A DNA stretch of 63,796 bases from Oscillospiraceae bacterium (GTDB lineage Bacteria > Bacillota > Clostridia > Oscillospirales > Acutalibacteraceae): positions 1 through 63,796 of the forward strand of contig JAISNY010000032.1 in the NCBI GenBank assembly GCA_031275995.1, given 5' to 3'. The notes below the pieces were generated by a model. The model was given only the letters and a program-made list of their open reading frames with translations, did no database searches and had not been told where the DNA came from. Below, piece after piece: positions 1 through 63,316 of the stretch; position 1 is the first letter of the stretch; every line of letters starts with the position of its first letter. Both the position numbers and the translations under genes were made by a program.

Positions 1-2
1 TT

Positions 3-884
3 CTATTGAGTTTGGTTTTTAATATCTTCTATTTCTGCGAGCGATAGGCCAGTTAACCTCGATATTAACGTTGGATCTAATCCCTCTGCATACGATTTTA
101 GGACTATTTCTTTTTTCTCTCTGGCTTCGCCTAACTGGATGCCCTCGGCTTTGCCTTTTACGAAGCCCTTAATGTCGGCTTCTTTGACGGAGCTTTTGTA
201 GTCACGCCAGAATTTTTCGCGCCGTTCTGCGATTTTTCTTTCGTTTTCATTAATGTTTAAGTTTTTTACTATGTTAACTGCTTTTAAAAGTTCTGTGTTT
301 GCTTCCGCCATTGTTGCTATCATATTTAGTTCCTCCTCGGATTTGATTTTCATAAATTCTAGCCATTCAACTAATCCGTTTTCTTTTGCGTTTTCTGGTA
401 TTTTCATTAATTCTAACGTGTTTATTTCGATTTTGTCTGTGAAAATATTTCCTGTTTTATTGACCAATAAAAATTTATTGTGAAACTCTTTGTTTTCTTC
501 GATTAGTATATGCTCCGCGGCGATTGCAATGCATATTACTTTTTGAATTTTATCATATTCTTCGCCGGATTTCATCTGTTCCGAGAGCATTTTTGAGATG
601 TAAAAGAGCACTCGTTCTTCAAAAAAACCTTGCCTGGCCACTTGCATTTCAACATCAATTATTTTATCGGTTTTTGTCCTGATTTTTATGTCAAGAATTC
701 CGATTTTATCTTTGATTAATTCCGATTTCAAAATAGGGTCGCAAATCGTCACTTCATCATAGTCTTCGTGCGGGATGTCGAGCACGGTTTTCAAAAATGC
801 TATCAAAATATCTTTGTTTTTTTCGTCTCCAAAAACAAGTTTGAAAATGTGGTCGTTTGTTGCGTTGTAAATCTTTTTGGCCAT
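3..884 (-). CDS. Rpn-family PD-(D/E)XK nuclease / transposase-like protein
   Basis: A 293-residue protein of the Rpn (recombination-promoting nuclease, PD-(D/E)XK transposase) type. The N-terminal NATNDHIFKLVFGD block and a nuclease core with Asp65 (GILDIKIR) and Glu79/Gln81 (DVEMQV) fit this family. The charged C-terminal third (EKFWRDYKSSVKEADIKGFVKGKAEG) is also typical. Family members are known to stimulate RecA-independent recombination in E. coli, and many occur in multiple copies in host-associated bacteria. The ATG is preceded by AAGGAAG at good spacing. The stop lies at the very edge of the window, but the gene is complete. Whether it is an active nuclease cannot be told from sequence. 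Confidence 0.85.
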   Translation of the reverse strand: MAKKIYNATNDHIFKLVFGDEKNKDILIAFLKTVLDIPHEDYDEVTICDPILKSELIKDKIGILDIKIRTKTDKIIDVEMQVARQGFFEERVLFYISKMLSEQMKSGEEYDKIQKVICIAIAAEHILIEENKEFHNKFLLVNKTGNIFTDKIEINTLELMKIPENAKENGLVEWLEFMKIKSEEELNMIATMAEANTELLKAVNIVKNLNINENERKIAERREKFWRDYKSSVKEADIKGFVKGKAEGIQLGEAREKKEIVLKSYAEGLDPTLISRLTGLSLAEIEDIKNQTQ

Positions 885-26432: not shown

Positions 26433-28757
26433 TTAATTAATTAAAAACTCAAGTAACTTAGCTGGTTTAATAGGCGGTCTTTCATTGGCTGCCTGCTGGA
26501 AAAGAACCGTAGAAGGAGTTAAACCAGGAAGCGTATTAATCTCTATTACTATAATTTCTCCTGTTAGATTGTTTGCAAACAAGTCCATGCGGCAGTACCC
26601 ATTAATTTTTATATATTGGCTAATCTTTTCTGCGGATTCCTTTATTTTTTTAAGAAGTTCTACGTTTATTATATTTTCTGGTGGCGGAGTTATATTAACA
26701 CCAGTTCCGCCTTGGAACTTTTCTTCAACACTGAGAATAGCGCCAGAGTCAGCAACAGTAAGGCTTGGGTTGAAAGAATGAAAAATCCCATTTTTTTCAA
26801 GCACCCCAACGGTAAGCTCAACCCAGCCTGTTTCAAATTTAGAGCAAATTTCACCTGAAAAAATTCTGATTTCATCAGTTTTAATAAATTCTTCAATTAA
26901 AAACTCCCGGCAATCTCCAAGCGCAATTTTTTCCGTTTGATATGCAAATGTACCCTTTGGAATAATTTTTTCGTTTTTTGAAACCAATTTCAAATAAGTA
27001 TCAAGTTCTTTACGGCTACCTATCACGACAACTCCTGTAGAACATCCATCTCCATTAGGTTTTATTACTACTTGTCTGCCAATTTTCTGTACGATTTCAT
27101 CCCAATCTATTTTTTCTTTCATTTTTAAAAAAGTTTTTTTAGCACTTCTTACATGCGGAATATTCAAAGAATCGATGATTTTACCGGTTTCAAATTTATT
27201 CATGCAAATTTTTGAAGATTCCGAACCGGAGCCGTTAAATCGAATCCCATGACGCTCCATAATTTTTTGAATATCCCCATTTTCGCCGAATCCGCCATGT
27301 AGAGCTATAAAAACGAATGCTTTGCTTTCTTTTGAAAATTTCAAAAATTCTTCCAAGGTCATGGACTTAGCTTTTTCAAAGGTCATAGGTTCAAGACCCA
27401 ACACTTCGCGAACCTCTGCAATCAATTCGCTGCATCCGATATTTGATTGAGCTTTAAATTGGTATAGAATTTCTTCAACAGTATGATAAAGCACCATCGA
27501 ATACGGAAGCTCAATAACCGAATATTTGCGGTTTTCAAAATACAGAAGAAAAGGTTTGGGAAGATATTTTTTTGATTTTGTTAATTTTAACCACACGTTC
27601 GACCCACTAAGAAGCGAAACTTGACGTTCTGTGGTAACTCCTCCGAGCAAAACGTTAACATTATGTTTTATCTCCGATTTAACCTTTAATTCAGGCTCAA
27701 ATTCAATTCCATACCTGTTGGCAGCAGAACTCAGTATATATCTAATCATTTCATGATGAGAAATACCAACCTTTGACCCTTGCTGAAAAATAAAACTATT
27801 TTGTTCCATTCCGCTTATAGGATTAAAATCTGAAAAACATATATTGTCTCCGATTAACCAGCCGTCTATCCTTAAAAAATCACGCGCATCACAAGTTTTA
27901 AAAAGTTTTTGCGCTTTGGTTCTGATTCTTTCAATAACTTTTTCCGGAAATCTTGGCGGGCAATGATAATGAGTTTCATTGGTAGCAAGATATTTTCTGC
28001 GAGTATCAAAAATTATGTTTTCGGAATCTTTGACTTCAATTTCTGTTGGAATTAAAGCAACAGCCTTACCTTCAGAATTTTGTAATACAATTACAGTGAA
28101 CTCCTTTCCCATGCACCGTTTTTCAATCAATATATCCTTTTTTTCATTTTCAAACATTTCTAATACAATCTTTTTCGCATGCTCTACACTACGAGCATGC
28201 TTAACTCCGAAAGAGGAACCTCCCTCAACCGGTTTAATTATAGACTCCGTCAAACTATTAGAAATAAAAAATTCAAAAATTTGATTTTCTATTATTTTAG
28301 AATCCTCATTGAATTCTAAAAATAGCTTAGGAACATTAAAAAAACCATATTTTTTTAGAATTTCCCGGTCGGCATTCCGTTTGTTATACATCTTATTACA
28401 AGCTTGTGACGAAGAACCAACGTACTTGATCTTTTCTCTTTCAAAAATTGCTTGGATTTGACCATCTTCAGCATAGATTCCATGCATAACCGGAAATACT
28501 AAATCCGATTCTTTTAAAACCTTTAAAAATTCATCCTCACTTAAAGGTTCATTTTTATTTTTCAACTTAAAATCAAAATCCAAAGTGGTGTTCGAATATA
28601 AAAACTCACCGCTTATGAGATATCCTTGTTTTTCTTTGTTTATAAATATTATTTTTACATCGTGTTCATTTTCAACATTGTCATAAACCGAGCGCGCAGA
28701 ATTAAGAGAGATGTTACGCTCATGCGAAATACCGCCACAAATAATGGTTAAGTTCAA
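26433..28757 (-). CDS. ddl: Tandem D-alanine-D-alanine ligase (two Ddl modules fused)
   Basis: 774 residues, about twice the normal Ddl length. Module 1 (1 to about 360) has GGISHERNISLNSA, VMHGIYAEDGQIQ, KPVEGGSSFGV and RIDGWLI..DFNPISGM. Module 2 (about 365-774) has LLGGVTTERQVSLLSG, ALHGGFGENGDIQ, KPNGDGCSTGVVV and EINTLPGLTPST. Both have the ATP-grasp layout. The metal-binding E-x-N is EIN in module 2 but DFN in module 1, so module 1 may be altered. Ddl makes the D-Ala-D-Ala end of the peptidoglycan stem peptide. The ATG follows a GGAGGAAA site. No frameshift joins the halves; it is a genuine fusion frame. Confidence 0.88.
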   Translation of the reverse strand: MNLTIICGGISHERNISLNSARSVYDNVENEHDVKIIFINKEKQGYLISGEFLYSNTTLDFDFKLKNKNEPLSEDEFLKVLKESDLVFPVMHGIYAEDGQIQAIFEREKIKYVGSSSQACNKMYNKRNADREILKKYGFFNVPKLFLEFNEDSKIIENQIFEFFISNSLTESIIKPVEGGSSFGVKHARSVEHAKKIVLEMFENEKKDILIEKRCMGKEFTVIVLQNSEGKAVALIPTEIEVKDSENIIFDTRRKYLATNETHYHCPPRFPEKVIERIRTKAQKLFKTCDARDFLRIDGWLIGDNICFSDFNPISGMEQNSFIFQQGSKVGISHHEMIRYILSSAANRYGIEFEPELKVKSEIKHNVNVLLGGVTTERQVSLLSGSNVWLKLTKSKKYLPKPFLLYFENRKYSVIELPYSMVLYHTVEEILYQFKAQSNIGCSELIAEVREVLGLEPMTFEKAKSMTLEEFLKFSKESKAFVFIALHGGFGENGDIQKIMERHGIRFNGSGSESSKICMNKFETGKIIDSLNIPHVRSAKKTFLKMKEKIDWDEIVQKIGRQVVIKPNGDGCSTGVVVIGSRKELDTYLKLVSKNEKIIPKGTFAYQTEKIALGDCREFLIEEFIKTDEIRIFSGEICSKFETGWVELTVGVLEKNGIFHSFNPSLTVADSGAILSVEEKFQGGTGVNITPPPENIINVELLKKIKESAEKISQYIKINGYCRMDLFANNLTGEIIVIEINTLPGLTPSTVLFQQAANERPPIKPAKLLEFLIN

Positions 28758-33257: not shown

Positions 33258-33887
33258 ATGAACATTAAAAATTTAATATTTTCGATGTTTATAGTGGTAG
33301 TATTGATGATTAATTGTGTTTCCGTAAGCGCATACACAATTAATGTGGTGACTATAGGAGGAGTTGGCTGCGGTAAAACGTCATTATTGTCGGTATTGTC
33401 AGGTGAAGGGTTTTGTAATAGTGGCCATGATACAACAGTAGGCCGTGGTTGTTTTATTTTTTGCTTAGAGAATCCCGAAAAAGAAGAAGTAAATATAAAA
33501 GCTTTTGATACTGCAGGAAGGTATAATCGTTCACTTACAAATAATTATTTGAGAGAAGCTGATGTAGTGTTTTTCTGCATTGATGCTAGTAACCAAGAAG
33601 AATCAATGAATTGGAGTTTGGCAATGTTAAAGCCTGTTCTTTGCAAAAATATCTTTGTGATAATAACTAAAAATGATTTAGCTAGAGAACCTATTATCCT
33701 GGACGTTAACAAGATTGGGGAAAAATTTAAATATTGCGGTATAAAAAAATGCACAGTTTTATCTACTTCGTCGCTTACGGGGAAAGGAATTGATGATTTA
33801 AAGAAAGAATTAGCTGATATAAAGCCGAGTGACAGAAGTGGAGGGGTAACTATAATTCAACAAACACAAAATGATGGTTGCTGTTAG
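33258..33887 (+). CDS. Secreted Ras/Rab-like small GTPase with C-terminal Cys-Cys (copy 1, divergent)
   Basis: 209 residues. A signal peptide (residues 1-25, MNIKNLIFSMFIVVVLMINC then VSVSA) precedes a complete small GTPase fold: P-loop TIGGVGCGKTSLL, switch I Thr in DTTVGR, switch II FDTAGRYNR, base motif ITKNDL and a final SLTGKGIDDL. The catalytic Gln of DTAGQ is Arg88, which in Ras/Rab proteins blocks GTP hydrolysis. The end NDGCC is a Rab-type geranylgeranylation signal. The gene has its own GAGGCGAGGG site, between prkC and metK. It is the most divergent copy and the only one outside the 52-63 kb region. The effector role is inferred. Confidence 0.85.
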   Translation: MNIKNLIFSMFIVVVLMINCVSVSAYTINVVTIGGVGCGKTSLLSVLSGEGFCNSGHDTTVGRGCFIFCLENPEKEEVNIKAFDTAGRYNRSLTNNYLREADVVFFCIDASNQEESMNWSLAMLKPVLCKNIFVIITKNDLAREPIILDVNKIGEKFKYCGIKKCTVLSTSSLTGKGIDDLKKELADIKPSDRSGGVTIIQQTQNDGCC

Positions 33888-52031: not shown

Positions 52032-52685
52032 TTAACAACATTTCTCACGTTCACGTTGTGTTCTTATCTGTAATGAACGTTCCGCTTCTTCTCTGAGATC
52101 CAAAATACACCCTGCAATCTTAACTATACTATCATCTAAGACTGCTACACCATCACCGGCCAAAGCGGAGCAAAAGTACACTGGCAATCCTAATTCTCTC
52201 GCTTTTTGTTCGATACCTTCTTTGGTGATATCCGAACCAAAAGCTAAATCCATCTTACTTGCGACTAAAATCACTTTAATCGAAACGGGAGCAGAGTCAC
52301 ATAATGTCGACAACCAAAAGTCAATAGCTTTAAATGAGTCTGAACTATCAACGCTAAAAACTATGACAGCAATTTCAGCATTTCTAAGGTACATCGGCAT
52401 AAGTGATTTATACACTTCCTGCCCAGCGGTGTCCCAAATCGCTAAATTGAAACATCTTCCACCATCTTCTCTAGGTAAACTAACGTGAGAAGCTCCCAGC
52501 GTAGGAAGAACTCCTGGATTAAAATTGCCATAAACCATACGCGACACAAGAGATGTCTTTCCTACTGCGGTATTACCTAACAATACGACTTTTACGTCTA
52601 CCCCTCCCTTTACACTTTTCGCCACTGGAATCGACATAACAAAAATAGAGGCTAATGCCCCGAATATCATGTTTTTAAATTTCAT
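52032..52685 (-). CDS. Secreted Rab-like small GTPase with C-terminal Cys-Cys (copy 2)
   Basis: 217 residues. Signal peptide residues 1-24 (MKFKNMIFGALASIFVMSIP then VAKS), then a textbook Rab fold: P-loop LLGNTAVGKTSLV (37-44), switch I Thr in LPTLGASHV, switch II WDTAGQEVY with the catalytic Gln89, base-binding ASKMDL and CSALAGDGV. The end EREKCC is a Rab-type double-Cys prenylation site, with no known use in a bacterium itself. GAGGAG precedes the ATG. Short copies of TTCGATGCTTTAGT flank both sides. Export followed by host geranylgeranylation is inferred. The upstream gap 52686-53109 holds no gene. Confidence 0.88.
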   Translation of the reverse strand: MKFKNMIFGALASIFVMSIPVAKSVKGGVDVKVVLLGNTAVGKTSLVSRMVYGNFNPGVLPTLGASHVSLPREDGGRCFNLAIWDTAGQEVYKSLMPMYLRNAEIAVIVFSVDSSDSFKAIDFWLSTLCDSAPVSIKVILVASKMDLAFGSDITKEGIEQKARELGLPVYFCSALAGDGVAVLDDSIVKIAGCILDLREEAERSLQIRTQREREKCC

Positions 52686-53109
52686 TTTTTCTCCTCAATT
52701 TTTTTAAAATTTTTATCATAACTAAAGCATCGAAGACTTACCAAATCTGTTCTCTCAAAGAACGATTACTTAGTTTTAATTTTATCACTCCACCCCTTTG
52801 TGCGATACTTTAAACACTTAGATAAATTTTAAAATGAACTTCTATTTAACTAAATATTTTAAATCATCACTTCATCATTATAGTTTAATTATATGTTAAC
52901 TCAAATAATTAACTCAAATAATTTGTAAAGAGTTACTTCGAGCTGTAACAGATAACAGAAATAATTAATTTGCGCTTAATATAAAGACGTAAAACCGATT
53001 ACTTCCAAATTTTCCGAATATGGCAGAAAACGAATAAAAATGGTTTTAAAATTTTGAGCAATTAATTAAGCTTGCAAAAACAAACGTTCGATATTAGACT
53101 TGGGTTCAA

Positions 53110-53185
53110 GGGGGTATAGCTCAGTTGGTAGAGCGCTTGAATGGCATTCAAGAGGTCAGCGGTTCGAACCCGCTTATCTCCACCA
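53110..53185 (+). tRNA. tRNA-Ala (GGC)
   Basis: Acceptor GGGGGTA pairs TATCTCC through two G-T pairs. The D arm is GCTC-AGTTGGTA-GAGC, the anticodon arm CTTGA-ATGGCAT-TCAAG carries GGC, the T arm is GCGGTTCGAACCCGC, and CCA is encoded. All parts are present. Confidence 0.96.
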
Positions 53186-53210
53186 ATAAAATAAAGATTG
53201 GGTGATATTT

Positions 53211-53432
53211 ATGTCTGAATTTGATTCTTTTGATGAAAATGGAGACTCAAACGAAAAGAAGAAGAAACCCAAGAAAAATGATGGAATTGGAGCTATATCT
53301 GGAGGTGTTGTAACTCTTCCGGATTCGACTATGGAGTGCAAATGGTGTGGGAATAGGTTTGCTTTCAACAGTAAGAATAAGAAACCCATATGCACATTTT
53401 GCGGTAGGGTACAAAACATAATGATTTTGTGA
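53211..53432 (+). CDS. Small zinc-ribbon peptide with possible double-glycine leader
   Basis: 73 residues from ATG 53211 (site TTGGGTGA). The N-terminal 33 residues are acidic then basic (SEFDSFDENGDSNEKKKKP) and end DGIGAISGG, resembling a double-glycine processing site. The rest has two Cys pairs (CKWCGNRF and CTFCGRV), a small zinc ribbon. It could be a PCAT substrate or simply a cytoplasmic zinc-ribbon protein; the leader is less typical than in the 58.4-kb gene. It lies between tRNA-Ala and an ABC exporter operon, 18 bases before the ATPase gene, so it may be the first gene of that operon. Confidence 0.55.
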   Translation: MSEFDSFDENGDSNEKKKKPKKNDGIGAISGGVVTLPDSTMECKWCGNRFAFNSKNKKPICTFCGRVQNIMIL

Positions 53433-53450
53433 TTTTGGTGAAACTGAAAC

Positions 53451-54185
53451 ATGGTTAAAGTAGAAAATATTTCTAAATTTTTTGGTAAGGTGCATGCTGT
53501 GAAAGGCGTGAGCTTTGAGGTTTCTGATGGTGAAATTGTGGGATTAATTGGCGAAAATGGAGCCGGGAAATCGACTTTGTTGCGGATTCTGAGTGGTGCG
53601 CTTTGCCCCTCCGATGGGACTGTGCATGTTGACGGTTTCGACTTGCTTACTCAACGCCAAGACGTTCGAAAGAACATTGGAATTTTATTTGGAAACGAAG
53701 TAGGCCTTTATGAAAGACTTACCGCTCGGGAGAACCTCGAATATTTTGCGTTGCTCAGCGGAATGAATAAACGTAACGTTCAGAAACGTATCTCAGTTTT
53801 GGCGGAGTGCTTCGAATTTAAAAAGTTTCAAAACAAAATGGCCCACACTCTTTCCAAGGGTATGAGGCAGAAAGTTGCGATAGCAAGATGCATCGTACAC
53901 GACCCTAAAATTATGCTTTTTGACGAACCGGATGCCGGACTCGACTTTGGGGCTTCCAAGATTTTTTTTGAATTTTTGGAATTATGCAAAGAGCAAAAAA
54001 AAAGTGTGATATTTTCAAGTCACTCCATGGAAAATGTCAAGATGTACACTGATAAAATTGTAGTGATGCGCGCAGGCAATGTGGTTAAAGTCTTAAATTC
54101 CGCGGAATATCGTGAATCTCACAGCAATCGCGAGTTTAACCAGTTTTTGTTTCAACTCATATGCGAGGAGACCGTCAGTGCTTAA
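53451..54185 (+). CDS. ABC transporter ATP-binding protein (NatA type)
   Basis: A 244-residue ATPase: Walker A GLIGENGAGKSTLLRIL, signature TLSKGMRQKVAIARCIV (LSKGM instead of LSGGQ, usual in NatA-like subunits), Walker B IMLFDEPDAGLD and H-loop IFSSHSM. The stop overlaps the permease start by 8 bases. With the downstream ABC-2 membrane protein it forms an efflux system of the Na+/drug-export type; the substrate is unknown. Confidence 0.92.
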   Translation: MVKVENISKFFGKVHAVKGVSFEVSDGEIVGLIGENGAGKSTLLRILSGALCPSDGTVHVDGFDLLTQRQDVRKNIGILFGNEVGLYERLTARENLEYFALLSGMNKRNVQKRISVLAECFEFKKFQNKMAHTLSKGMRQKVAIARCIVHDPKIMLFDEPDAGLDFGASKIFFEFLELCKEQKKSVIFSSHSMENVKMYTDKIVVMRAGNVVKVLNSAEYRESHSNREFNQFLFQLICEETVSA

Positions 54186-55359
54186 GGAAATATCTATAAT
54201 TTTCAAAAAAGAACTAAAAACTATGATGAGAGACCGTCGCACTTTTATCTTCAGCGTGATAATGCCCTTTGTGCTTGTGCCGCTCATGCTCTTTGTTATT
54301 AGTTACTCGATGAGTAATTTTCGGCATCAAATTTCTGAAAACATTAGTTTATCGTTCAAAAATAAGGATGATTTATTTTATAAGTTTTGTGCACTTCAAG
54401 AAAACATAAAAATTATGGAAGGTGGCAAAGAGCTTTTAGAGCGTGGTTTAGTTTCGGCATATATAGAAACTGATGAAGATTTGGATTATAAAATTTTGCA
54501 CGGCGAGAAGGTAAATATATCAATTGAATATGGTAATTCATCTATAAATTCCATAATGACGACGCCTTTTTTAAATGTTTATGAGCAAAGCTTCCTGGAA
54601 ATATGCTCAAGTTTTGCAGATTTAGCCGCTAAAAATAAAATAACATACGAACAGGCCGAAAAAATTTTAAATTATTATAAAGTTCCCGCCACAGAGGCTC
54701 CTAAAGTGAGTTCAGATGTTAATGAAGGTTTAATTTATGTGAGTATGCTCGCTCCTATGATGATGCTTCTCTACTCTTGCGTAGGCTCCGCAGGATGCGC
54801 CAGCGAAATAACTGCCGGCGAAAAAGAACACGGAACTCTGGAGCCGTTGATTTCAACCGGCGTTTCACGTGATGCAATTGTTTTGGGTAAGCTTCTCACT
54901 GCAGCAGCGATAGGATTAATAAGTTCTGTTAGTGCTGCCGCCGGGCTCTTTGGGTATGCAATCTTACAATCCATAACGATTCCCAACATGAGCTTGACGG
55001 CCTTTAGTTATATTTTATGGATTTCTATTTTCACGTCGTTGTTTTTTGCGACGGTCAACATGGCTATAGGAGTATTCTCTAAGTCATATAAAGAAGCTCA
55101 GACCTACATGATGCCTGTCTCACTTATGGTGCTATTCCCATCCTATTACGCATATTTTTCCAGCGTAAATAACATCCCCATTCAATTCTTTTCAATTCCT
55201 ATTTTGAACATTGTTTATGTCATCAAAGAACTATTTGCAGGTATTGTTAATTTTAATCATTTGGGTATCGTTTCTGGTTGGCTTGTGATTTATTCTGTTG
55301 CTGTGTATCTTATTATAAGGCATATGTTCAAAAAAGAGAGCGTTATTTTTAGAATTTAA
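54178..55359 (+). CDS. ABC-2 type permease (NatB-like)
   Basis: 393 residues from GTG 54178, behind GAGGAG; the longer frame from 54112 would overlap natA coding sequence. One N-terminal helix (RTFIFSVIMPFVLVPLMLFV), a large outside loop (about residues 40-190), then five helices. The ABC-2 signature reads SEITAGEKEHGTLEPLISTG. This matches NatB, the membrane half of the Na+-extruding NatAB exporter of Bacillus, though related proteins move other substrates. Confidence 0.88.
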   Translation: MLKEISIIFKKELKTMMRDRRTFIFSVIMPFVLVPLMLFVISYSMSNFRHQISENISLSFKNKDDLFYKFCALQENIKIMEGGKELLERGLVSAYIETDEDLDYKILHGEKVNISIEYGNSSINSIMTTPFLNVYEQSFLEICSSFADLAAKNKITYEQAEKILNYYKVPATEAPKVSSDVNEGLIYVSMLAPMMMLLYSCVGSAGCASEITAGEKEHGTLEPLISTGVSRDAIVLGKLLTAAAIGLISSVSAAAGLFGYAILQSITIPNMSLTAFSYILWISIFTSLFFATVNMAIGVFSKSYKEAQTYMMPVSLMVLFPSYYAYFSSVNNIPIQFFSIPILNIVYVIKELFAGIVNFNHLGIVSGWLVIYSVAVYLIIRHMFKKESVIFRI

Positions 55360-55373
55360 AGGAAGTGCCTGAT

Positions 55374-57407
55374 TTGGGGCTTAGAGATTGGGTTTTGCCT
55401 AAAATCGATAAAGAGTTATCTGAAGCGATTTCTCACAAATGGCAGTTGCCTGAGTTTTTGGTTTATATGCTTCTTGGACGTGGCTTCAAAACAGAAGAAG
55501 ATGCAAACGAATTTCTAAACGGATCAAACAAATTTCCAGATCCTTTCCATTTTGAAAATATGAAAATTTTAGTAGAAAATTTACAGGAATCAATTGAAAA
55601 ATTTGAAAAGATTTGCATATACGGAGATTATGATGCCGATGGAATTACTTCCACGGTCATGATGTACGAATATCTTCAAGAACGTGGAGCTGACGTCATA
55701 TATCAGATTCCGTCGCGTTACAGCGAGGGTTATGGGCTTACCATATCGGCAATAGACAAGATGCATGATTATGGAGTTAAAACAATATTAACAGTTGACA
55801 ATGGAATGTCTGCTCACGAAGAAGTTAATTATGCGAATTCATTAGGAATCAAAGTTTTGGTAACCGACCATCACCTGCCAGGTGAAATTCCTCCTGCGGC
55901 ACGTTCTATTGTGAATCCGCATTTTAATAAAGGCAAGAGCTTTAAGTTTTATGCGGGAGTGGGCGTAGCTTTTAAAGTGATAGAAGCTATGGAAAAAGGG
56001 GAAAAAACCTGGGAAGAACTAATGGATCGTTTCGGAGATCTTGTCGCCATAGGGACCATCGGAGATGCCGTTCCTTTGCTCAAGGAAAATCGTGAGTTCG
56101 TACGTAAAGGGATTGAAATACTAAAAAATTCAAAACGTATTGGTTTGAGGGAAATTCTTAAGAATGTTGATAAAATAGACGAATTATTTATCACTTGTAA
56201 CATCGTTCCAAAAATTAATGCATGTGGACGCATAGGCAACCCTGAATTAGCTGCAAAGCTTTTACTTTGTGAAAATGAATCTGAAACAAGCGAAATTTAT
56301 GAGTTTATAACTAATGAAAATGAAAAACGTAAAATTATATGCAAAGAGACAAATGAAGATGTTCAAAAAAAAATCAGAGATAATCCGGAGATGTATTTTA
56401 AGCGTGTAATTTTTGCACAGAGCGAATCTTGGAATCACGGAGTTCTGGGTATCGTTGCTTCCAGGATAATTTCTAAATTTGGCAAACCTGTAATTTTATT
56501 TTCCATTGAGGAAGGTGAGGCCCGAGGTTCTGCAAGAAGCACCCAAGGGTTTTCGATTTTTGATGCGATAGAACAGTGTTCAGAATTTTTAGAACGTTAC
56601 GGCGGCCATAAGATGGCTGTAGGTATGAACCTTAAAAGTGAAAATATCGAACCTTTTAAGAAACGCTTTTTTGAGTATATTGAAAAAATTCAAATACCTC
56701 ACCCCGTGATTAATATAGAGCGTGTTCTGGAACCGGAAGAAATCACGGCTGACAACGTTGAAAATCTAGAGAGAATTAGACCCTTTGGTACGGAAAATTT
56801 TGAGCCTATGTTTGGAATTTTCGAAGTTAAGCTTATAAATATTGTTCCGATCGGCGGTGGAAAACATTTAAAACTTATGTTTTCAAAAAAAGGTCGAAAT
56901 TTTAGCGCGGTTTACTTTGGAGTTTCGGCCCAAAAATTTTTCTATGTTGTCGGAGACATCCTGGATTTGGCTGTAAAAATAAGGTTTAATTTTTACGCTG
57001 GAAATCGTGATATTGGAATATATATAAGCAAAATTAAATTTTCTTCTTTTGACGCAGGAAAAGCGGTACTTGAAAAACAAATTTTTGAAGATTTTATGAA
57101 TGGCTCTGAAATTGACGATGAATCGCGCCATAATATGCGTCCTACGCGCGAAGAAATAGCGTCAGTTTATAAGTTTTTAAAGAAGAATTGTATAACAGTC
57201 TCTAAATTAGAGGTCCTCATAAAAAGGATAAACAAAGAAAATATAAATTTTTCAAAATTATGTATAGTTTTCGAAATTATAAACGAATTAGGTTTGGTAG
57301 ATATAACAAAAAATGCTGATGTATACGAATTTTCGATAAATAATGTCTCATCCAAGGTAGATTTAGAAAGATCTTCGATCTTGCGAAAGCTCGGCGATAA
57401 ACCATAG
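55374..57407 (+). CDS. recJ: Single-stranded-DNA-specific exonuclease RecJ
   Basis: About 677 residues. TTG 55374 is preferred over GTG 55365, which touches the AAAGGA site. DHH-family motifs: IYGDYDADGITSTVM, TVDNGMSAHEEV, VLVTDHHLPGE, ATIGDAVPL-type (AIGTIGDAVPLL), and DHHA1 end SARSTQGFSIFDAIEQC plus GGHKMAVGMNL. An OB domain and a C-terminal extension (about 560-680) follow. RecJ degrades single strands 5' to 3' in recombination and mismatch repair. Together with RuvC, PcrA and LigA, a repair capacity is retained. Confidence 0.94.
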   Translation: MGLRDWVLPKIDKELSEAISHKWQLPEFLVYMLLGRGFKTEEDANEFLNGSNKFPDPFHFENMKILVENLQESIEKFEKICIYGDYDADGITSTVMMYEYLQERGADVIYQIPSRYSEGYGLTISAIDKMHDYGVKTILTVDNGMSAHEEVNYANSLGIKVLVTDHHLPGEIPPAARSIVNPHFNKGKSFKFYAGVGVAFKVIEAMEKGEKTWEELMDRFGDLVAIGTIGDAVPLLKENREFVRKGIEILKNSKRIGLREILKNVDKIDELFITCNIVPKINACGRIGNPELAAKLLLCENESETSEIYEFITNENEKRKIICKETNEDVQKKIRDNPEMYFKRVIFAQSESWNHGVLGIVASRIISKFGKPVILFSIEEGEARGSARSTQGFSIFDAIEQCSEFLERYGGHKMAVGMNLKSENIEPFKKRFFEYIEKIQIPHPVINIERVLEPEEITADNVENLERIRPFGTENFEPMFGIFEVKLINIVPIGGGKHLKLMFSKKGRNFSAVYFGVSAQKFFYVVGDILDLAVKIRFNFYAGNRDIGIYISKIKFSSFDAGKAVLEKQIFEDFMNGSEIDDESRHNMRPTREEIASVYKFLKKNCITVSKLEVLIKRINKENINFSKLCIVFEIINELGLVDITKNADVYEFSINNVSSKVDLERSSILRKLGDKP

Positions 57408-57409
57408 GC

Positions 57410-57720
57410 ATATAGAAAAAGATACATCTGTGCATAAATTAAGAAAACTGAGTTAAAAATTATCTCCAGATTTTTCGACCGACAATATATTTTTTAAAAA
57501 ATCTTGCGGGATATCCTTAAAAACCGATTCATTCGTTCAACGATGTACGTTTTTCCAACAATATGGTTGGCTGGGTCAATCGATTGTACGATTTCCAACA
57601 TCGCTTTACATATATTTTGGCATCGATATGAACGATTTTTTGTGAATGTTTCTTAAAGTATTTTGTGTCCTAGAGTATCGACTTGAAATCCGACAATCTT
57701 TTGTGTTTTAAGTTATATCA
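57410..57720 (-). mobile_element. Decayed IS1-like transposase remnant
   Basis: On the minus strand pieces in different frames resemble the catalytic end of IS1-type transposases: SIDPANHIVGKTYIVERMNR, FLRISRKIF, and after a shift YCRSKNLEIIFNSVFLIY. Parts are homologous to 28949-29068 and 4130-4200. Frameshifts and a missing N-terminal half show that it is dead. The remaining gap up to tRNA-Glu has nothing else. Confidence 0.5.
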
Positions 57721-57992
57721 CAATCCAAATCCAGATCTTTTTAAAAACTAACACTACAATAGCTCTTTAAGAAAACATAAAACTCAATGACTTATTGATT
57801 TTATGTTTGCTGCACAAAAAACAAAATATTTTATATTATCTTGGAAAATTTCATATTATGCAAAAATCGATCCCGCTGGCACACCATCCAAAACCCATGC
57901 CTACACGACTCGATATTTGCGAAATTGTTTGAATCGTTTCGAAAAAATATATCTCAACACAAAATTCATGAGATAATTTGGAATTCGACTTC

Positions 57993-58067
57993 TGGTGACT
58001 CGTGCGGGAATCGAACCCGCGATACCGGCGTGAGAGGCCAGTGTCTTAACCGCTTGACCAACGAGCC
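57993..58067 (-). tRNA. tRNA-Glu (CTC)
   Basis: Acceptor GGCTCGT pairs ACGAGTC. The anticodon arm CTGGC-CTCTCAC-GCCGG carries CTC, the T arm is GCGGGTTCGATTCCCGC, and CCA is encoded at 57995-57993. A TATAAT (58077-58072 on the minus strand) sits just before the 5' end, suitable as a -10. The 310 bases from 58068 to 58377 have no gene. Confidence 0.95.
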
Positions 58068-58377
58068 TAAAATTATAACCCACCTAACAATTTTTTCTTC
58101 AAAACTAACGCCACCCATAAAGCTTTGGGTAATAAGTAAACCCTATTTCATTAACCAAAATACATCCCTAATTATCATGTCCGCAATTCTTAGATAACCA
58201 TATTATTAAAGCTATCGTTGAATCTTTTATATTTAACCACAAAAACATCTGTAGTTGGCCTTAACTTGACATACCTTACCGAATTATTTCCTTACATGAC
58301 TGTCATCTGTTCAAAATGAAGATAAATACTGTCGAAATAAGCTTTAAAATCGAAAAACGAACCGACTCAAAATACCA

Positions 58378-58647
58378 TTATCCTTCCTCCAACCATTGAT
58401 CTATTTTTGATTTATTTTCTCTATATATATCACTATCCTTGTTTTTTATGAGCCAAACTTTAACCAATTCGGAAACACTGCAATACCAACCTACCCTCTT
58501 TTTACTTTTACCAGATTCGACAAATCTCCTGGTCTTGTCCACCAAAGATTCTAATTGACAATAATCAACACCCCATATCGTCTCCGGGTTAGGTAACCCG
58601 CCCGATACATCCCCTATAATGTTATCGTCAACCTCTTTTCCTTTCAT
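58378..58647 (-). CDS. Small peptide with double-glycine leader (candidate NHLM/PCAT substrate)
   Basis: 89 residues from ATG 58647, which follows a perfect AAAGGAGG by five bases. The N-terminus MKGKEVDDNIIGDVSGG matches the classical double-glycine leader shape (acidic DD, hydrophobic at spaced positions, V-S-GG). Cleavage would leave a 72-residue product beginning LPNPETIWGVDYCQ, with two Cys, a helical charged C-terminal part and several Trp. No bacteriocin family or immunity gene is recognised. The PCAT exporter at 10-12 kb is the obvious processing enzyme, but it is unlinked. Function could be antibacterial or host-directed. Confidence 0.72.
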   Translation of the reverse strand: MKGKEVDDNIIGDVSGGLPNPETIWGVDYCQLESLVDKTRRFVESGKSKKRVGWYCSVSELVKVWLIKNKDSDIYRENKSKIDQWLEEG

Positions 58648-58677
58648 AAAAACCTCCTTTGACCAGCAATAAAAACC

Positions 58678-58852
58678 ATTTCCCACTTCTTAATTAAAAA
58701 ACACACCGCTCAAAAAAATTCTATACAAAACTCGCTCTTATTGTATCATTTCAAAACTTAAAAAACTATTTCCCGCTTCTTAATTACAAAATACACCGCC
58801 CAAAAACAAAATTCTACACAAAACCCGTTTTTACTGTATCACTTCGAAACCT
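58678..58852 (-). repeat. Imperfect tandem duplication upstream of the double-glycine peptide gene
   Basis: 58678-58762 and 58768-58852 are diverged copies of an 83-85 base segment (both contain TTCTTAATTA, ACACCGC and TTCTA.ACAAAAC). The distal copy keeps a promoter; the proximal copy keeps the -10-like TACAAT but has lost the -35. Confidence 0.75.
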
Positions 58853-58861
58853 AAGTGTCAA
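58833..58861 (-). promoter_or_regulatory. Promoter of the 58.4-kb double-glycine peptide gene
   Basis: On the minus strand TTGACA (58861-58856), a 17-base spacer and TACAGT (58838-58833). It would give a leader of about 180 bases containing the duplicated segment. Confidence 0.6.
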
Positions 58862-58882
58862 TGTTTCGCATGCTTAGAAATT

Positions 58883-58935
58883 TCTAAAAACATATACACC
58901 TATGCATAAATACAAAACTGAGTTAAAAATCATCG
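58883..58935 (-). mobile_element. Small fragment of the IS1-like C-terminal end
   Basis: About 50 bases match the 57419-57470 segment (TATGCATAAATACAAAACTGAGTTAAAAATCAT-like text, in the same orientation). No coding capacity remains. Confidence 0.45.
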
Positions 58936-59075
58936 TAGTGTGCATTATAAAATACGCTTCTCAAAATCACACGCCACGCCTCCAGCTGTCAGTTACTAAA
59001 TCTCTTACATCAACTAGCTAACTGTAGCTGGGTTTCGGCAACACCTGTGATCGCTATACTGTAACAAACGTTTAC

Positions 59076-59168
59076 TTATAATTCTCTTAATAACCTCAAA
59101 ACAACAATAAATCCTTCAAAAGGTGGCATTAATAAAAATGTTCCGAATATCATGTTTTTAAATTTCAT
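59076..59168 (-). pseudogene. Broken secreted-GTPase gene (signal-peptide start only)
   Basis: A ribosome binding region and the codons MKFKNMIFG of the GTPase family are intact, then the frame departs (TFLLMPPFEGFIVV) and stops after 30 residues. The upstream 60 bases are the same boundary sequence as between the intact GTPase genes. It marks a deleted tandem copy downstream of copy 3. Confidence 0.7.
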
Positions 59169-59208
59169 CTTTCACCTCAATTTTATCATAATTAAAGAAT
59201 CGAGTTGA

Positions 59209-59850
59209 TTAACAACATTTCTTATCTTCATTTTCATGTAATTCTTCTGTTTCTAATGAACATGTCACTTTTTGGGGAATCTCTTTTGCAAGATTAAACA
59301 TACATCCCTTTAACTCATCGACACCCTCGCCGGTCTTAGCGGAGCAAAAGTACACTGGCATTCCTAAACTTTCCGCTTTTTGTTGGATCTCTCCTTCGGC
59401 AACCAAACGTTCCTTCAAATCTGTCTTATTTGCGACTAAAATAAATTTAATATTTTCAATATCAACATATCCTCTTAATAAAGAAAGCCAAGTGACAATA
59501 GCTCCAAATGAATTAGTATCATCAACACTAAAAACTATGACAACAATTTTAGAATTCCTAACGAAAGACAACGCAATTGATCGATATCTTTCCTGCCCAG
59601 CGGTGTCCCAAATATCTAAGGCGGTATCTTCTTCGGTTAATCTGACGTAGTTAACTCCTACCGTAGGATGATGATCACCACTGAGAGGCTTACCCACAAT
59701 TTTGTTTAAAAGAGTTGTCTTCCCCACTCCAGCATTACCTAAAAATATGACTTTTACAAATGCAATACCTTTCGCCGCACCTTTCGCCGCTGGAGTCGGC
59801 ACCATAAAAATAAAAGCCAATGCCCCGAGTATCATGTTTTTAAATTTCAT
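59209..59850 (-). CDS. Secreted Rab-like small GTPase with C-terminal Cys-Cys (copy 3)
   Basis: 213 residues. Signal peptide (MKFKNMILGALAFIFMVPTP then AAKG), P-loop FLGNAGVGKTTLL, switch I HPTVGVNYV, switch II WDTAGQERYRS (the canonical Rab sequence; catalytic Gln86), NKTDL, CSAKTGEGVDEL, and end NEDKKCC. It is the copy closest to eukaryotic Rabs in its motifs. GGAGGAAAAA precedes the ATG. The 53-base spacer to copy 4 repeats around other members. All invariant nucleotide-binding residues are present, so it should be an active GTPase. Host-directed function is inferred from signal peptide plus prenylation motif. Confidence 0.9.
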   Translation of the reverse strand: MKFKNMILGALAFIFMVPTPAAKGAAKGIAFVKVIFLGNAGVGKTTLLNKIVGKPLSGDHHPTVGVNYVRLTEEDTALDIWDTAGQERYRSIALSFVRNSKIVVIVFSVDDTNSFGAIVTWLSLLRGYVDIENIKFILVANKTDLKERLVAEGEIQQKAESLGMPVYFCSAKTGEGVDELKGCMFNLAKEIPQKVTCSLETEELHENEDKKCC

Positions 59851-59903
59851 TTTTTCCTCCTCACATTTTTTAAAATTTTATCATAATTAAAGAATCGAGT
59901 TGA

Positions 59904-60590
59904 TTAACAACATTCCTTATTTTCACGTAGTTCTTCTGCTTCAAATGAAGGTATCACTTGAAGATCATTTGCAAGACAAAACATATTTATCTTTAAATCA
60001 TCGACACCCGCGCCGTCCTTAGCGGAGCAAAAGTACACTGGGAATTCTAATGCTAATGTTCCCAATTCTTTTCGGATCCCTTCTTCGTTGGCAAACCAAT
60101 TCTCGCGCGGCAAATCTGTCTTATTTGCGACTAAAATCAATCCAATATCTTCATGTTCTCTTAAGAAATTAATCCAATATTCAACAGCTTCAAATGAACC
60201 CTTATCAACAATGCTAAAAACTATGATAGCAATTTTAGAACCTCTAATGTAGTTCACCGTTGTTGCCCGATATTCTTCCTGCCCAGCTGTGTCAAACAAT
60301 CTTAAACACATACTATTATTATCTTCCAAACACATCTCTTCAGGTAAATCATTCCAATAACGTCCTATATGTAAATTCTTACAATCAAGTCCTATCGTAG
60401 CAGAATAATCACCACTGAAACACTCACCCACAATTCTTTTTAAAAGAGCTGTCTTCCCGACTGCAGTATTACCCAAAAATATGACTTTTACACACCTCTG
60501 CGGAGTCAGCATACTTTTCGTCACTGGAGTCAACATAACAAAAACAAAGGCTAAGGCTAATGCCCCGAATATCATGTTTTTAAACTTCAT
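59904..60590 (-). CDS. Secreted Rab-like small GTPase with C-terminal Cys-Cys (copy 4)
   Basis: 228 residues, the longest member. Signal peptide (MKFKNMIFGALALAFVFVML then TPVTKS), P-loop FLGNTAVGKTALL, switch I SATIGLDC, an insertion of about 15 residues between switch I and II (NLHIGRYWNDLPEEMCLEDN), switch II FDTAGQEEYRA with Gln104, ANKTDL, CSAKDGAGVDDL and end ENKECC. GAGGAG-type site before the ATG. The insertion lies in the effector-facing region and may set target choice. It is first of the tandem pair with copy 3 and about 100 bases after the SCIFF maturase. Confidence 0.88.
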   Translation of the reverse strand: MKFKNMIFGALALAFVFVMLTPVTKSMLTPQRCVKVIFLGNTAVGKTALLKRIVGECFSGDYSATIGLDCKNLHIGRYWNDLPEEMCLEDNNSMCLRLFDTAGQEEYRATTVNYIRGSKIAIIVFSIVDKGSFEAVEYWINFLREHEDIGLILVANKTDLPRENWFANEEGIRKELGTLALEFPVYFCSAKDGAGVDDLKINMFCLANDLQVIPSFEAEELRENKECC

Positions 60591-60689
60591 TGTTTCTCCT
60601 CACATTTTTTTAAATTTTATGATATTATGATATATTGCTAAAAATCATAACTCACGCAAATAAACCTGAGACACCAACTATCCTGCTAA

Positions 60690-62054
60690 TTAAATGCTTA
60701 TTGAAGCAGAAAGCCTGAAGGCACATTCTAAACGTTTCTTTTCTAATTTGCAAGAAAGTTTATGCGGAGAATCTAAATAATTATTGAAATTCCAATTATT
60801 AGCCCGGCAAAGGCCGCCGCAATAAAATTTTGCCCAACAGCCCCCACATTCGGGATTAGTAAAAATACTAGGGTTCCCAAAATTATGAAGTTTTATCGAC
60901 GAACTTTTATCAAACTTTTCTTTTATGTTGCCCATCTTAAATTCAGAAATTCCTACGAACTGATGGCACGGATAAACATCGCCTTCAGGAGTAATTGCAA
61001 CATACTCGTTTGCACAACCGCAGCCTTTTACACGTTTAATCGCGCACGGCCCCCCATTAATGCTTACCATAAAATGGAAAAAATCAATTTTCGAACCCCT
61101 TTTCCTAAGAGCAATGATAGTTTCTGTTAATTTTTCATATTCCGAACAAATCTGATCTGCATCCAATTCGGTTATAGCATACTCAAGATCTTTTGAAATA
61201 ACAGGTTCAAGAGAAATTCGATCAAAACCTAAGTTATATATTTCCATGAAGTCTTTGGTGAAGTCAAGGTTGTTTCTAGTAAAAGTCCCACGGACAAAAT
61301 AATTTTTCCCTCCGCGTTTTTCAACAAGACGCTTGAACTTGGGAACAACAATATCAAAACTTCCCGCTCCTGTCTTTGTAAAACGCATTGCATCATGCAC
61401 CGACTTTCTACCGTCAAGTGAAAGAATTACATTAGACATCTCTCGATTTATAAAATCAATTTTCTTTTCATCAAGAGCTAAACCGTTTGTGGTTATAGTA
61501 AATCGAAATAACTTTCCATGCTTAATAGATTCTTTCTTGGCATACTCCACCGTTTTTTCAATGATTCCAAAATTAATCAAAGGCTCTCCGCCGAAAAAAT
61601 CTACCTCCAAATTGCGACGAGACCCGCTATTTTTTATCAAGAAATCAATAGCAGACTTAGTTGTTTTTTCGTCCATTAGCGAGCATTCGCCCCCAAACGC
61701 TCCCCAAGATGCGAAACAATACTTGCAAACAAGATTACAATCATGAGCAATGTTAAGACACATCGCCTTGATTGGAGACTCCAATTTTTCACAAATTCTT
61801 GTGAGATCAGGTTCTTTAGAAAATAAACGACCTTCTGAAATCAGTGCACGAACCTCAGAAAGAGCGCTCTCAACATTTTCTTCCCCATACTTTTGATAAA
61901 ATCTAAAGAGAGACGAAGCATCGCTTTCAAAATCTAGCATCCCACGTTCATGGCACTCTAAGAGTTCATAAACTATTTCATCGATTTCATAAACAGAACC
62001 ACTACCAACGTCTACCACGATGTTAGCATCCTGCATCTTAAATTTATGTATCAT
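60690..62054 (-). CDS. SCIFF peptide maturase (radical SAM, thioether-forming)
   Basis: 454 residues. An N-terminal peptide-recognition domain (IVVDVGSGSVYEIDEIVYEL) precedes the radical SAM core with CNLVCKYCFASWG, FFGGEPLINF and TTNGL. The C-terminal SPASM/twitch Cys set (GCGCANEYVAITPEGDVYPC, NPECGGCWAKFYCGGLC) binds auxiliary clusters. The enzyme links Cys sulfur to neighbouring carbons in the six-Cys peptide SCIFF, a system almost confined to Clostridia. Its ATG abuts the SCIFF stop codon. Why it sits inside a cluster of secreted GTPases is unknown; the region may simply have been invaded. Confidence 0.95.
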   Translation of the reverse strand: MIHKFKMQDANIVVDVGSGSVYEIDEIVYELLECHERGMLDFESDASSLFRFYQKYGEENVESALSEVRALISEGRLFSKEPDLTRICEKLESPIKAMCLNIAHDCNLVCKYCFASWGAFGGECSLMDEKTTKSAIDFLIKNSGSRRNLEVDFFGGEPLINFGIIEKTVEYAKKESIKHGKLFRFTITTNGLALDEKKIDFINREMSNVILSLDGRKSVHDAMRFTKTGAGSFDIVVPKFKRLVEKRGGKNYFVRGTFTRNNLDFTKDFMEIYNLGFDRISLEPVISKDLEYAITELDADQICSEYEKLTETIIALRKRGSKIDFFHFMVSINGGPCAIKRVKGCGCANEYVAITPEGDVYPCHQFVGISEFKMGNIKEKFDKSSSIKLHNFGNPSIFTNPECGGCWAKFYCGGLCRANNWNFNNYLDSPHKLSCKLEKKRLECAFRLSASISI

Positions 62055-62198
62055 TTATTTATTTTTTTCACACTCTTGGTTAGCAACAGTACATGACGTT
62101 TTACATGCCGATTGACAAGATGCCTGACACTCCCCGCACCCTCCGTCACAAACGCTCTGTGAAAGATCAAAACTACCTATAATTTTAATGTGATCCAT
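62055..62198 (-). CDS. SCIFF ribosomal peptide precursor (seven Cys)
   Basis: 47 residues, too short for usual gene callers. It starts MDHIKIIGSFDLSQSVCDGG and continues CGECQASCQSACKTSCTVAN before QECEKNK. The CGEC-x3-C-x3-C-x3-C spacing and the TVANQ tail define SCIFF. Canonical members have six Cys; here Cys17 in SVCDGG is an extra one. The stop is immediately followed by the maturase ATG. The precursor is known to be thioether-cross-linked in Clostridia; its biological role is not established. Confidence 0.95.
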   Translation of the reverse strand: MDHIKIIGSFDLSQSVCDGGCGECQASCQSACKTSCTVANQECEKNK

Positions 62199-62258
62199 TG
62201 TTAATCATCCCCAACCTGTATTGTGCTTTAATTATCAGAAAAATGCAAGACCGGGCTG

Positions 62259-62882
62259 TCAATCAAATAGCTTTGGCTTTTTTGCAAGACGAAACATATA
62301 TTGCCTTAAAACATCGACACCAATGCCGGTCTTAGCGGAGCAAAAGTACACTGGTATTTTTAATTCGTCTGCTTTTCGTACGATATCTTCTCTGGAGATC
62401 ACCCAATCCAAATCTATCTTATTTGCGACCAAAATCAATCCAATAAGTCCATGATTAAATACACGTTTAATTTCACGATTTCTTACCCTTGATAACTTAA
62501 TCCAATCTTCAATAGCTTCAAATGAACCAATATCATCGACGCTAAAAAATATGACAAAAATTTCAGAACAATCAGTATAAACCGGCAACCGTTTTCGATA
62601 TTTTTCCTCCCCAGGGGTGTCACGAAATAATAATTCTAAGCCTAAGTTGTCGTCTTTTAAAAGGTAGCTGCTTACAGGTGGTAAAAGGTAGTCTTCAGGT
62701 GCTAACGACATTCTAACTTCAGGTAAACCCATCAACCGTTCTACAAAAGTTGTTTTCCCCACTCCAGCATTACCTACAAATGCGACTGATATCCGCAGCA
62801 ACGGTAGTAAGCTTTTCGCCGCTGGAGTCGGCACCATAAAAATAAAAGCTAATGCCCCGAATATCACGTTTTTAAATTTCAT
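62259..62882 (-). CDS. Secreted Rab-like small GTPase lacking the catalytic Gln and the Cys-Cys tail (copy 5)
   Basis: 207 residues. Signal peptide nearly identical to copy 3 (MKFKNVIFGALAFIFMVPTP then AAKS), P-loop FVGNAGVGKTTFV. Switch I has no clear Thr (LLPPVSSYLL). Switch II is RDTPGEEKYRK, with Glu92 in place of the catalytic Gln and Pro for Ala. ANKIDL and CSAKTGIGVDVL are intact. It ends RLAKKPKLFD, without the lipidation Cys pair, about where the hypervariable tail should begin; the SCIFF gene starts 60 bases on. It is either a variant that stays soluble and GTP-locked, or an early pseudogene. Confidence 0.8.
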   Translation of the reverse strand: MKFKNVIFGALAFIFMVPTPAAKSLLPLLRISVAFVGNAGVGKTTFVERLMGLPEVRMSLAPEDYLLPPVSSYLLKDDNLGLELLFRDTPGEEKYRKRLPVYTDCSEIFVIFFSVDDIGSFEAIEDWIKLSRVRNREIKRVFNHGLIGLILVANKIDLDWVISREDIVRKADELKIPVYFCSAKTGIGVDVLRQYMFRLAKKPKLFD

Positions 62883-62933
62883 TTTTTCTCCTCACATTTT
62901 TTAAATTTTATCATAATTTAAGAATCGAGTTGA

Positions 62934-62972
62934 TTAACAACATTTCTCATCTTCATGTCGCGCTTCTGTTTC
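62934..62972 (-). pseudogene. 3' tail remnant of another secreted GTPase
   Basis: Twelve codons reading ETEARHEDEKCC and stop, followed by the same boundary sequence that trails the other copies (TCAACTCGATTCTTAAA). An in-frame TAA just upstream (62975-62973) shows that the body of the gene is gone. The stretch 62976-63120 has no recognisable gene. Confidence 0.7.
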
Positions 62973-63130
62973 TTAACTCTTTGAATTTGTACACCACTTC
63001 CATCCACATTCCTTCATGGGTGCAAATGCTAATACCATTGGATATGTGATCGGGTTTTGATACAGTGAAAAACCAGCGCTGTTGCGGGGTTTGGCTTTTT
63101 GGCTCTCAATTTTATCATCATTTTTGCTTA

Positions 63131-63316
63131 CTAATTATAACCCATGGTCGACGCTTCATTTCCAAAAGGATCACGTGCAAGCCCTTTAACAAGACGTGTT
63201 TTATCAACTCCCACATCTCCCAAAATTACAACCCTAGCTGATTTTTCTGTAAAGACCGTAACAGTGAACACCCCAAAAACCAATAAAGCGAAAACCAAAA
63301 AACAAACTTTTTTCAC
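63131..63316 (-). pseudogene. Truncated secreted GTPase (signal peptide and P-loop only)
   Basis: 61 residues from GTG 63316 (site GAGGAAAC). A signal peptide (KKVCFLVFALLVFGVFTVTV) and P-loop VVILGDVGVDKTRLVKGL are recognisable. The invariant P-loop Gly before Lys is Asp (GVDKT), and the frame stops at the switch I position (ASTMGYN). It cannot bind GTP normally. It differs from copies 2-5 in its signal peptide, so it represents another lineage of the family. Confidence 0.7.

Follow-up and report, generated by a model that had tools for sequence, protein, structure and literature searches.

Predicted exported Rab-like GTPases with host-type prenylation ends in a reduced-genome Oscillospiraceae bacterium

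A 63,796-nucleotide window of Oscillospiraceae DNA (GCA_031275995.1, contig JAISNY010000032.1) encodes a family of Rab-like small GTPases that carry predicted export leaders and mostly end in two cysteines. The window is one contig (C11) of a genome, here G000, of 903,703 bases in 42 contigs with 89.1% completeness. Our preferred reading, to which we give a probability of about 0.65 from the sequences, is that these are captured Rabs which a small-genome bacterium exports as counterfeits, likely lipidated by host Rab geranylgeranyl transferase (RabGGTase) and predicted to act on host membranes. The original prediction had proposed exported, host-acting Rab mimics; that proposal is supported in part, by predicted Sec leaders, Rab domains, multiple copies, Rab-type ends and, as in published parasites, a small genome with an ATP/ADP translocase, while the supposed novelty of the set is not upheld.

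The window holds five intact small-GTPase open reading frames (ORFs), P0001 to P0005, all complete and each behind a predicted Sec leader (Table 1). They share one layout, with a brief run of basic residues at the start, then a hydrophobic core, then a Ras-superfamily G-domain. Three further intact copies lie outside the window, two on contig C41 and one on C4, all with a leader and all ending KCC, which brings the genome to eight intact exported-type GTPase genes. A ninth gene at C16:88 was set aside as a likely contig-edge copy, its 35 residues being those of a C41 gene. Contamination by a eukaryotic contig was rejected as well: a scan of 19 window neighbours, to which one protein from elsewhere was added, met many families with bacterial housekeeping roles, and Shine-Dalgarno-like sites stand upstream of the GTPase genes.

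Leaders were called by a simple rule of our own, not by SignalP, which asks for a positive n-region, a hydrophobic core before the domain and small residues at positions −3 and −1. With start codons chosen to show a leader, and with the rule also demanding an extension before the P-loop that eukaryotic Rabs mostly lack, 40 of the 42 exported-type copies collected here and in relatives passed, against 5 of 230 listed homologues; a leader is thus predicted in most copies, as originally proposed. The P-loop lies at residues 31–46 in exported-type copies and at a median of residue 21 in the 230 listed homologues, and a Shine-Dalgarno-like site lies ahead of the chosen start in 37 of 41 copies. P0002–P0005 have a near-common leader, MKFKN..IFGALA..F. 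Once its predicted leader is removed, P0003 would have about 13 residues ahead of the P-loop, as ordinary Rabs do. Sec export of the GTPases is predicted on these grounds. Two other proteins of the genome, at L006:685-1362 (−) and L107:13654-14337 (+), have no Pfam match and begin with a GTPase-like leader (MKFKFRNITFAA..AFI). Their middles are divergent, and they finish in a basic, possibly amphipathic end that has no Cys motif; they are candidates for further exported effectors.

All five window proteins match Pfam Ras above cut-off (P0002 120 bits, P0003 122, P0004 104, P0005 54 and P0001 36), which bears out the five leader-plus-GTPase genes first described, weakly for the gene at 33258. 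The nearest solved relatives of P0003 by sequence are Ypt6, Rab9, Ypt1, Rab6 and Rab7 (E 3e-26 and on). An AlphaFold model of P0003, built from eight input sequences, has a mostly confident G-domain and a mean predicted local distance difference test (pLDDT) score of 69.5, with both the leader (residues 1–27) and the tail (195–213) below 50. A Foldseek search with this model ranked Rab1a first, with Ypt1:GDI and KRAS close behind, in keeping with the proposed Rab/Ras identity. The Ras-superfamily G1–G5 motifs are present in the set, weakest in P0001 and P0005. The Rab-type switch II WDTAGQE is exact in four of the eight copies (P0002, P0003 and both C41 genes) and deviates in P0004 (FDTAGQE), the C4 gene (WDTAGLE), P0001 (DTAGR) and P0005 (DTPGE). 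By sequence, most of the set belongs to the Rab family, P0001 weakly so.

The ATP/ADP translocase family PF03219 occurs in 18 of 299 genomes of the bacterial family, among them G000 with a match of 426 bits. We searched the other 17 translocase genomes, one genome of the same genus without the translocase and the metagenome-assembled genome Oscillospiraceae Nc350_bin131 (G005), and then 398 genomes of the family. G005 holds 24 Rab-like genes, while 14 of the 18 relatives comprising the translocase genomes and the same-genus genome have none. At E 1e-12, Rab-like genes were found in 8 of the 398 family genomes, all of 0.9–1.8 Mb, and in one of 398 genomes sampled across the phylum, which was G000 itself; both scans scored nine candidates per genome, so these may be under-counts. 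The free-living homologues whose existence could have told against the original prediction are thus absent from this sample, and the combination of leader, GTPase and Cys-Cys that it led us to seek in related genomes was found, for example in G005, G093 and G129. G093 and G129 have reduced genomes (1.1 and 1.4 Mb) with CC-ended exported-type Rabs, yet are not among the 18 translocase genomes. A first contig scan by leader pattern alone gave no match; a second that included the domain returned two Nc350_bin131 loci and two archaeal loci.

This distribution bears on whether the proteins are simply small GTPases of ordinary bacterial type (MglA or EutP-like) that are anchored to the membrane by their N-terminus and work inside the cell. 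The best Pfam match of P0001 is indeed PduV-EutP, although its best solved relative is Rab12 (E 1e-6). Seven of the eight copies, however, score 52–136 bits to Pfam Ras, the solved relatives of P0003 are Rabs, none of the 397 other phylum-sample genomes has a Rab-like gene at the same threshold, and within the family such genes are confined to reduced genomes. An ordinary internal GTPase is therefore very improbable as an explanation of the set, and is ruled out for seven of the eight copies by the Pfam and genome searches and for P0003 also by the search against solved structures.

CC, CXC and CCX are RabGGTase-type ends. Seven of the eight exported-type GTPases of G000 terminate in Cys-Cys, including four of the five in the window as originally noted, the exception being P0005. 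Background ORFs of at least 100 residues were taken mechanically from 384 kb of G000 and 77 kb of G005. None of the 286 other ORFs from G000 ends in CC or CXC (Fisher p 2e-13), so the motif is far above chance; one has a CCX/CCXX-type end and one a CaaX-like end. In G005, CC or CXC closes 6 of 23 exported-type GTPases and none of 47 other ORFs, which carry no prenylation-type end of any kind. The 20 residues before the CC are identical at only 0–7 positions between G000 copies, the close C41 pair excepted, whereas the G-domains agree at 29–71 of about 130 positions; the tails have diverged while the CC was kept, and two cysteines thus persist in otherwise changed sequence. No PF01239 match was found in G000, nor any to PF00432, for which a control search was equally without a match and the result is hence uninformative.

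Across the relatives, 44 exported-type hits in eight genomes gave 42 intact copies in seven, after removal of L091 (in-frame stop) and L103 (contig edge, N-terminus incomplete); G033_C29 has no start codon ahead of its leader and was read from the preceding stop. Eighteen copies end in a prenylation-type motif (CC, CXC, CCXX or CaaX), 13 in a transmembrane stretch and 11 in neither. The Cys ends comprise seven CC in G000; one CC, four CSC and one CAC in G005; one CC in G093; two CC in G129; TCCKK in G099; and CSIL in G181. The transmembrane class, defined by hydropathy (19-residue mean >1.5, with G005_C25 and G005_C96a borderline), consists of eleven G005 and two G033 proteins, mostly with basic residues after the stretch. 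A Cys motif and a transmembrane end never occur together (0 of 42; p 1e-4, kinship uncorrected). DTAGQ, which includes the catalytic Gln, occurs in 13 of the 18 proteins with a Cys end but in 2 of the other 24 (p 4e-5), and among the 13 transmembrane-ended proteins in G005_C25 alone. For the transmembrane-ended GTPases, display at the surface of the bacterium is predicted. G129_C27 has its sister protein in another genus, G181_C10 (support 100/99); they end RGCC and GWCSIL respectively, and if the two are orthologues, a prenylation end of one class has been exchanged for one of the other.

Could the cysteines be functionless leftovers of captured host genes, on proteins that act elsewhere, for example in a vacuole lumen or on the bacterial surface? 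The listed closest homologues mostly carry prenylation-type ends (97 of 113 and 96 of 120, the second list holding one G005 gene fragment), so the starting gene probably had such an end. Some copies also have no intact one, namely P0005 and G005_C7b, whose P-loop is altered (GNGGVRKI) and which has only one of the pair of cysteines present in its sister G005_C62. Against this, tail identity before the cysteines is nearly gone while both are kept in seven of eight copies, the sister proteins end CC and CSIL, and copies without a Cys-type end mostly lack DTAGQ as well (22 of 24). We consider such leftovers an unlikely account of the ends.

The cysteines might instead be in use, though by a route other than RabGGTase: CaaX enzymes, S-acylation by the host, or a link through a metal or a disulfide. 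Two database proteins, P0178 and P0179, have a near-identical leader and domain and end respectively in a Cys-rich cluster and NCGC, as expected if lipid attachment in general were selected, and the CSIL of G181_C10 is a CaaX-type end. The ends nevertheless are mainly of RabGGTase type and form the extreme C-terminus of Rab domains that for the most part have Rab switch motifs, and the two like-leader proteins without a Pfam match have no Cys end; such other uses seem to us quite improbable. Together with P0077, P0144 and P0168, P0178 and P0179 make up a distinct group of Rabs with leaders; within it, proteins that are otherwise almost alike finish in either a Cys-rich cluster or CXC. P0057, another database protein, is a leader-bearing Rab on a 97.5 kb contig that ends SCCK. 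A viral source for P0178 and P0057 was discarded, as scans of viral contigs yielded no relative.

The G-domains also appear to change quickly. In nine of nine disjoint paralogue pairs (two from G000, seven from G005), chosen by us as near neighbours among 74 pairs whose proportion of changed synonymous sites (pS) was below 0.45, the ratio of non-synonymous to synonymous change (dN/dS) over the domain was 1.16–2.62. Summed over these pairs, changes affect 144 of the 923 synonymous sites and 890 of the 3220 non-synonymous sites (p 8e-15). The pair G005_C62/C7b (dN/dS 1.88) was left out, C7b appearing degenerate. Over all 74 pairs and three site-count models the overall excess was not reversed. 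The cross-genus sisters G129_C27 and G181_C10 give a domain dN/dS of 0.34.

A tree, from which 13 of the 42 copies (all G005) were omitted for size, placed two G005 sets and one long-branched G093 copy among eukaryotic Rabs, and the core seven of G000 in a separate, weakly supported group (85/79).

Within the window, copies have multiplied by tandem duplication and decay, as repeats and relics show. P0003 and P0004 are tandem duplicates whose tail and spacer DNA is still similar and is also common to a relic.

Table 1. Exported-type GTPase genes, their ends and related features in the window, with transmembrane-ended loci of relatives.
Feature	Position	Strand	Description
P0001	33258..33887	+	Divergent exported-type small GTPase; P-loop GGVGCGKT at residue 34; ends NDGCC
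P0001 predicted leader	residues ~1-25	+	Unlike the leader of the other four window copies
P0001 two terminal Cys codons	33879..33884	+	Encode the final CC
P0002	52032..52685	−	Exported-type Rab-like GTPase; IWDTAGQE; ends REREKCC
P0002 predicted Sec leader	52614..52685	−	Simple rule, not SignalP
P0002 two terminal Cys codons	52035..52040	−	Encode the final CC
P0003	59209..59850	−	Exported-type Rab-like GTPase; IWDTAGQERYRS, NKTD, SAK; ends NEDKKCC; structure modelled
P0003 predicted Sec leader	59779..59850	−	Simple rule; pLDDT <50 in model
P0003 two terminal Cys codons	59212..59217	−	Encode the final CC
P0004	59904..60590	−	Exported-type Rab-like GTPase; P0003 tandem duplicate; ends ENKECC
P0004 two terminal Cys codons	59907..59912	−	Encode the final CC
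P0005	62259..62882	−	Divergent exported-type GTPase; switch II DTPGE; no RabF1 match; ends KPKLFD, no Cys end
Repeated tail-end and spacer DNA	59172..59247; other copies 59867-59942, 62897-62972	−	Tandem duplication
Decayed copy, probably single	62934..63316	−	Leader and G-domain start 63316-63131; orphan tail ..EDEKCC stop (by eye); frame broken between
Decayed copy	59076..59168	−	Shared leader start, then short frame; 30 codons in all
Transmembrane-ended loci	G005 L070, L074, L076, L078, L080, L082, L084, L085, L086, L088, L089; G033 L062, L065		

The counterfeit-Rab reading may be set out as a series of steps. Eukaryotic Rab genes would have been captured, as homology suggests, and joined to a leader and a ribosome-binding site of bacterial kind; uninterrupted frames and Shine-Dalgarno-like sites are what the sequence shows. 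The genes then multiplied by the duplication and decay seen in the window. Predicted export and leader removal would leave a normal Rab, on which Rab escort protein (REP) and RabGGTase in the host cytosol could lipidate both cysteines. On host membranes the GTP-bound form may compete for or recruit host Rab partners, and the fast change of the domain, seen in the ratios of the nine chosen pairs, would reflect positive selection. In relatives, a transmembrane stretch in place of the Cys end is predicted to hold the GTPase on the bacterium's own surface. The bacterium would, on this reading, lead an intracellular life.

Several points weigh against this reading. The gravest concerns topology. 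If a host membrane surrounds the bacteria, a Sec-exported protein would land in the lumen, where host prenyl transferases would not be expected, unless a further membrane is crossed. For two of the three published relatives, electron microscopy in Takahashi 2023 (PMC10579323) shows bacterial cells enclosed by host membrane, and cells of CfP3-15, the genome with 18 small GTPases, are putatively identified there. Should the CfP3-15 cells be free in the cytosol, Sec export would be enough by itself. Within the set, P0005 has no Cys end, P0001 is weakly Rab-like by sequence, and the copies are related by duplication, so that counts overstate their independence. Start codons were hand-picked. Eleven of the 42 copies have neither kind of end, and DTAGQ is missing from 5 of the 18 Cys-ended proteins. 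The dN/dS excess rests on pairs that we chose and that have low synonymous divergence, and choosing by low pS somewhat favours high ratios; 8 of the 74 pairs fall below 1 under a plain site count, counted by eye, and the sole non-GTPase paralogue control pair gives 0.28 with dS saturated. In the tree the G000 Rabs group with no single host lineage, and three approximately unbiased (AU) tests reject nothing, a single origin of all bacterial copies included (p 0.245).

A broader scheme, which we put forward tentatively and would not ourselves bet on, is a counterfeit-Rab system in two formats within one lineage of Gram-positive endosymbionts, with captured host Rabs serving as fast-evolving weapons in an arms race. 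One set would be released and lipidated by the host (CC, CXC, CCXX, CaaX), and another, in relatives, displayed on the surface through a C-terminal stop-transfer helix, giving both host organelles and the bacterium false Rab identities.

Several neighbouring genes may be recorded. P0001 (window 33258-33887, +) directly follows genes for an RlmN-like protein, a PP2C phosphatase and a PASTA kinase, a location that in Firmicutes is usually occupied by rsgA. A SCIFF-type system lies amid the GTPase array (60690-62200, −), with a radical SAM/SPASM maturase at 60690-62054 and a small peptide rich in cysteine at about 62198-62055. A 774-residue ORF (26433-28757, −) matches D-Ala-D-Ala ligase twice, with the N- and C-terminal Pfam domains in two stretches each, and a 102-residue ORF without a Pfam match (58378-58864, −) follows two tandem repeat units of about 90 bases.

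If the counterfeit-Rab reading is right, these bacteria make their own Rabs in many copies and let the host finish them with lipid, instead of modifying host Rabs. As the general Sec pathway would be all that is needed, host membranes would come within reach of an intracellular Gram-positive parasite that has no type III or type IV injection system. Cys against transmembrane ends, and CC against CaaX in sisters, would amount to a natural experiment on what a counterfeit Rab requires, and the excess of amino-acid change could mark which faces of the domain contact host partners. The genes are also relevant to how frequently genes taken from a host become effectors in protist symbioses.

Eukaryotic Rabs (Rab1, Rab6, Rab9, Rab11 and Ypt1) resemble the G000 copies in G-domain, switch motifs and Cys end; unlike them, they have no N-terminal export leader. 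Legionella Rab-like proteins reach the host by type IV injection, not by Sec export from a Gram-positive cell, and GtgE of Salmonella has a CaaX box and is not a Rab. The review PMC7542358 describes the Legionella proteins as encoded in bacteria but carrying Rab domains of eukaryotic type, with a presumed part in subverting host traffic. GtgE (PMC13423502) and LseA (PMC7542358) are presented in those sources as host-prenylated effectors, bacterial proteins that use host prenylation enzymes to reach host membranes; LseA has a CaaX box and is SNARE-like, whereas the ends in the present set are mainly of Rab type (CC, CXC) and sit on Rab domains. Among the titles and abstract openings listed from an open-licence library, none concerned a bacterial Rab with a Rab-type prenylation end.

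The closest parallel to a multi-copy secreted Rab set, which the original prediction had thought unusual, was already in print. Takahashi 2023 (PMC10579323) reports Rab genes and Sec signal peptides from clostridia that live as endosymbionts in protists of the termite gut; the single genome CfP3-15 has 18 small GTPases, mainly Rab, and at least 20 of 42 eukaryotic-like genes encode a signal peptide. These bacteria, Candidatus Improbicoccus and relatives, are described there as having reduced genomes with an ATP/ADP translocase and numerous GTPases of the Rab family, along with predicted Sec signal peptides and a proposed interference with the host. A term search of the main text found no mention of prenylation, cysteines, lipid or C-termini, and the transmembrane-ended class and the dN/dS excess also appear to be undiscussed in it. 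New here are the end classes, the DTAGQ bias of Cys-ended copies, the dN/dS excess and the distribution in reduced genomes, and they come from a bacterium that shares with the Takahashi 2023 clade a reduced genome (904 kb, 89% complete), an ATP/ADP translocase (426 bits), Rabs and leaders.

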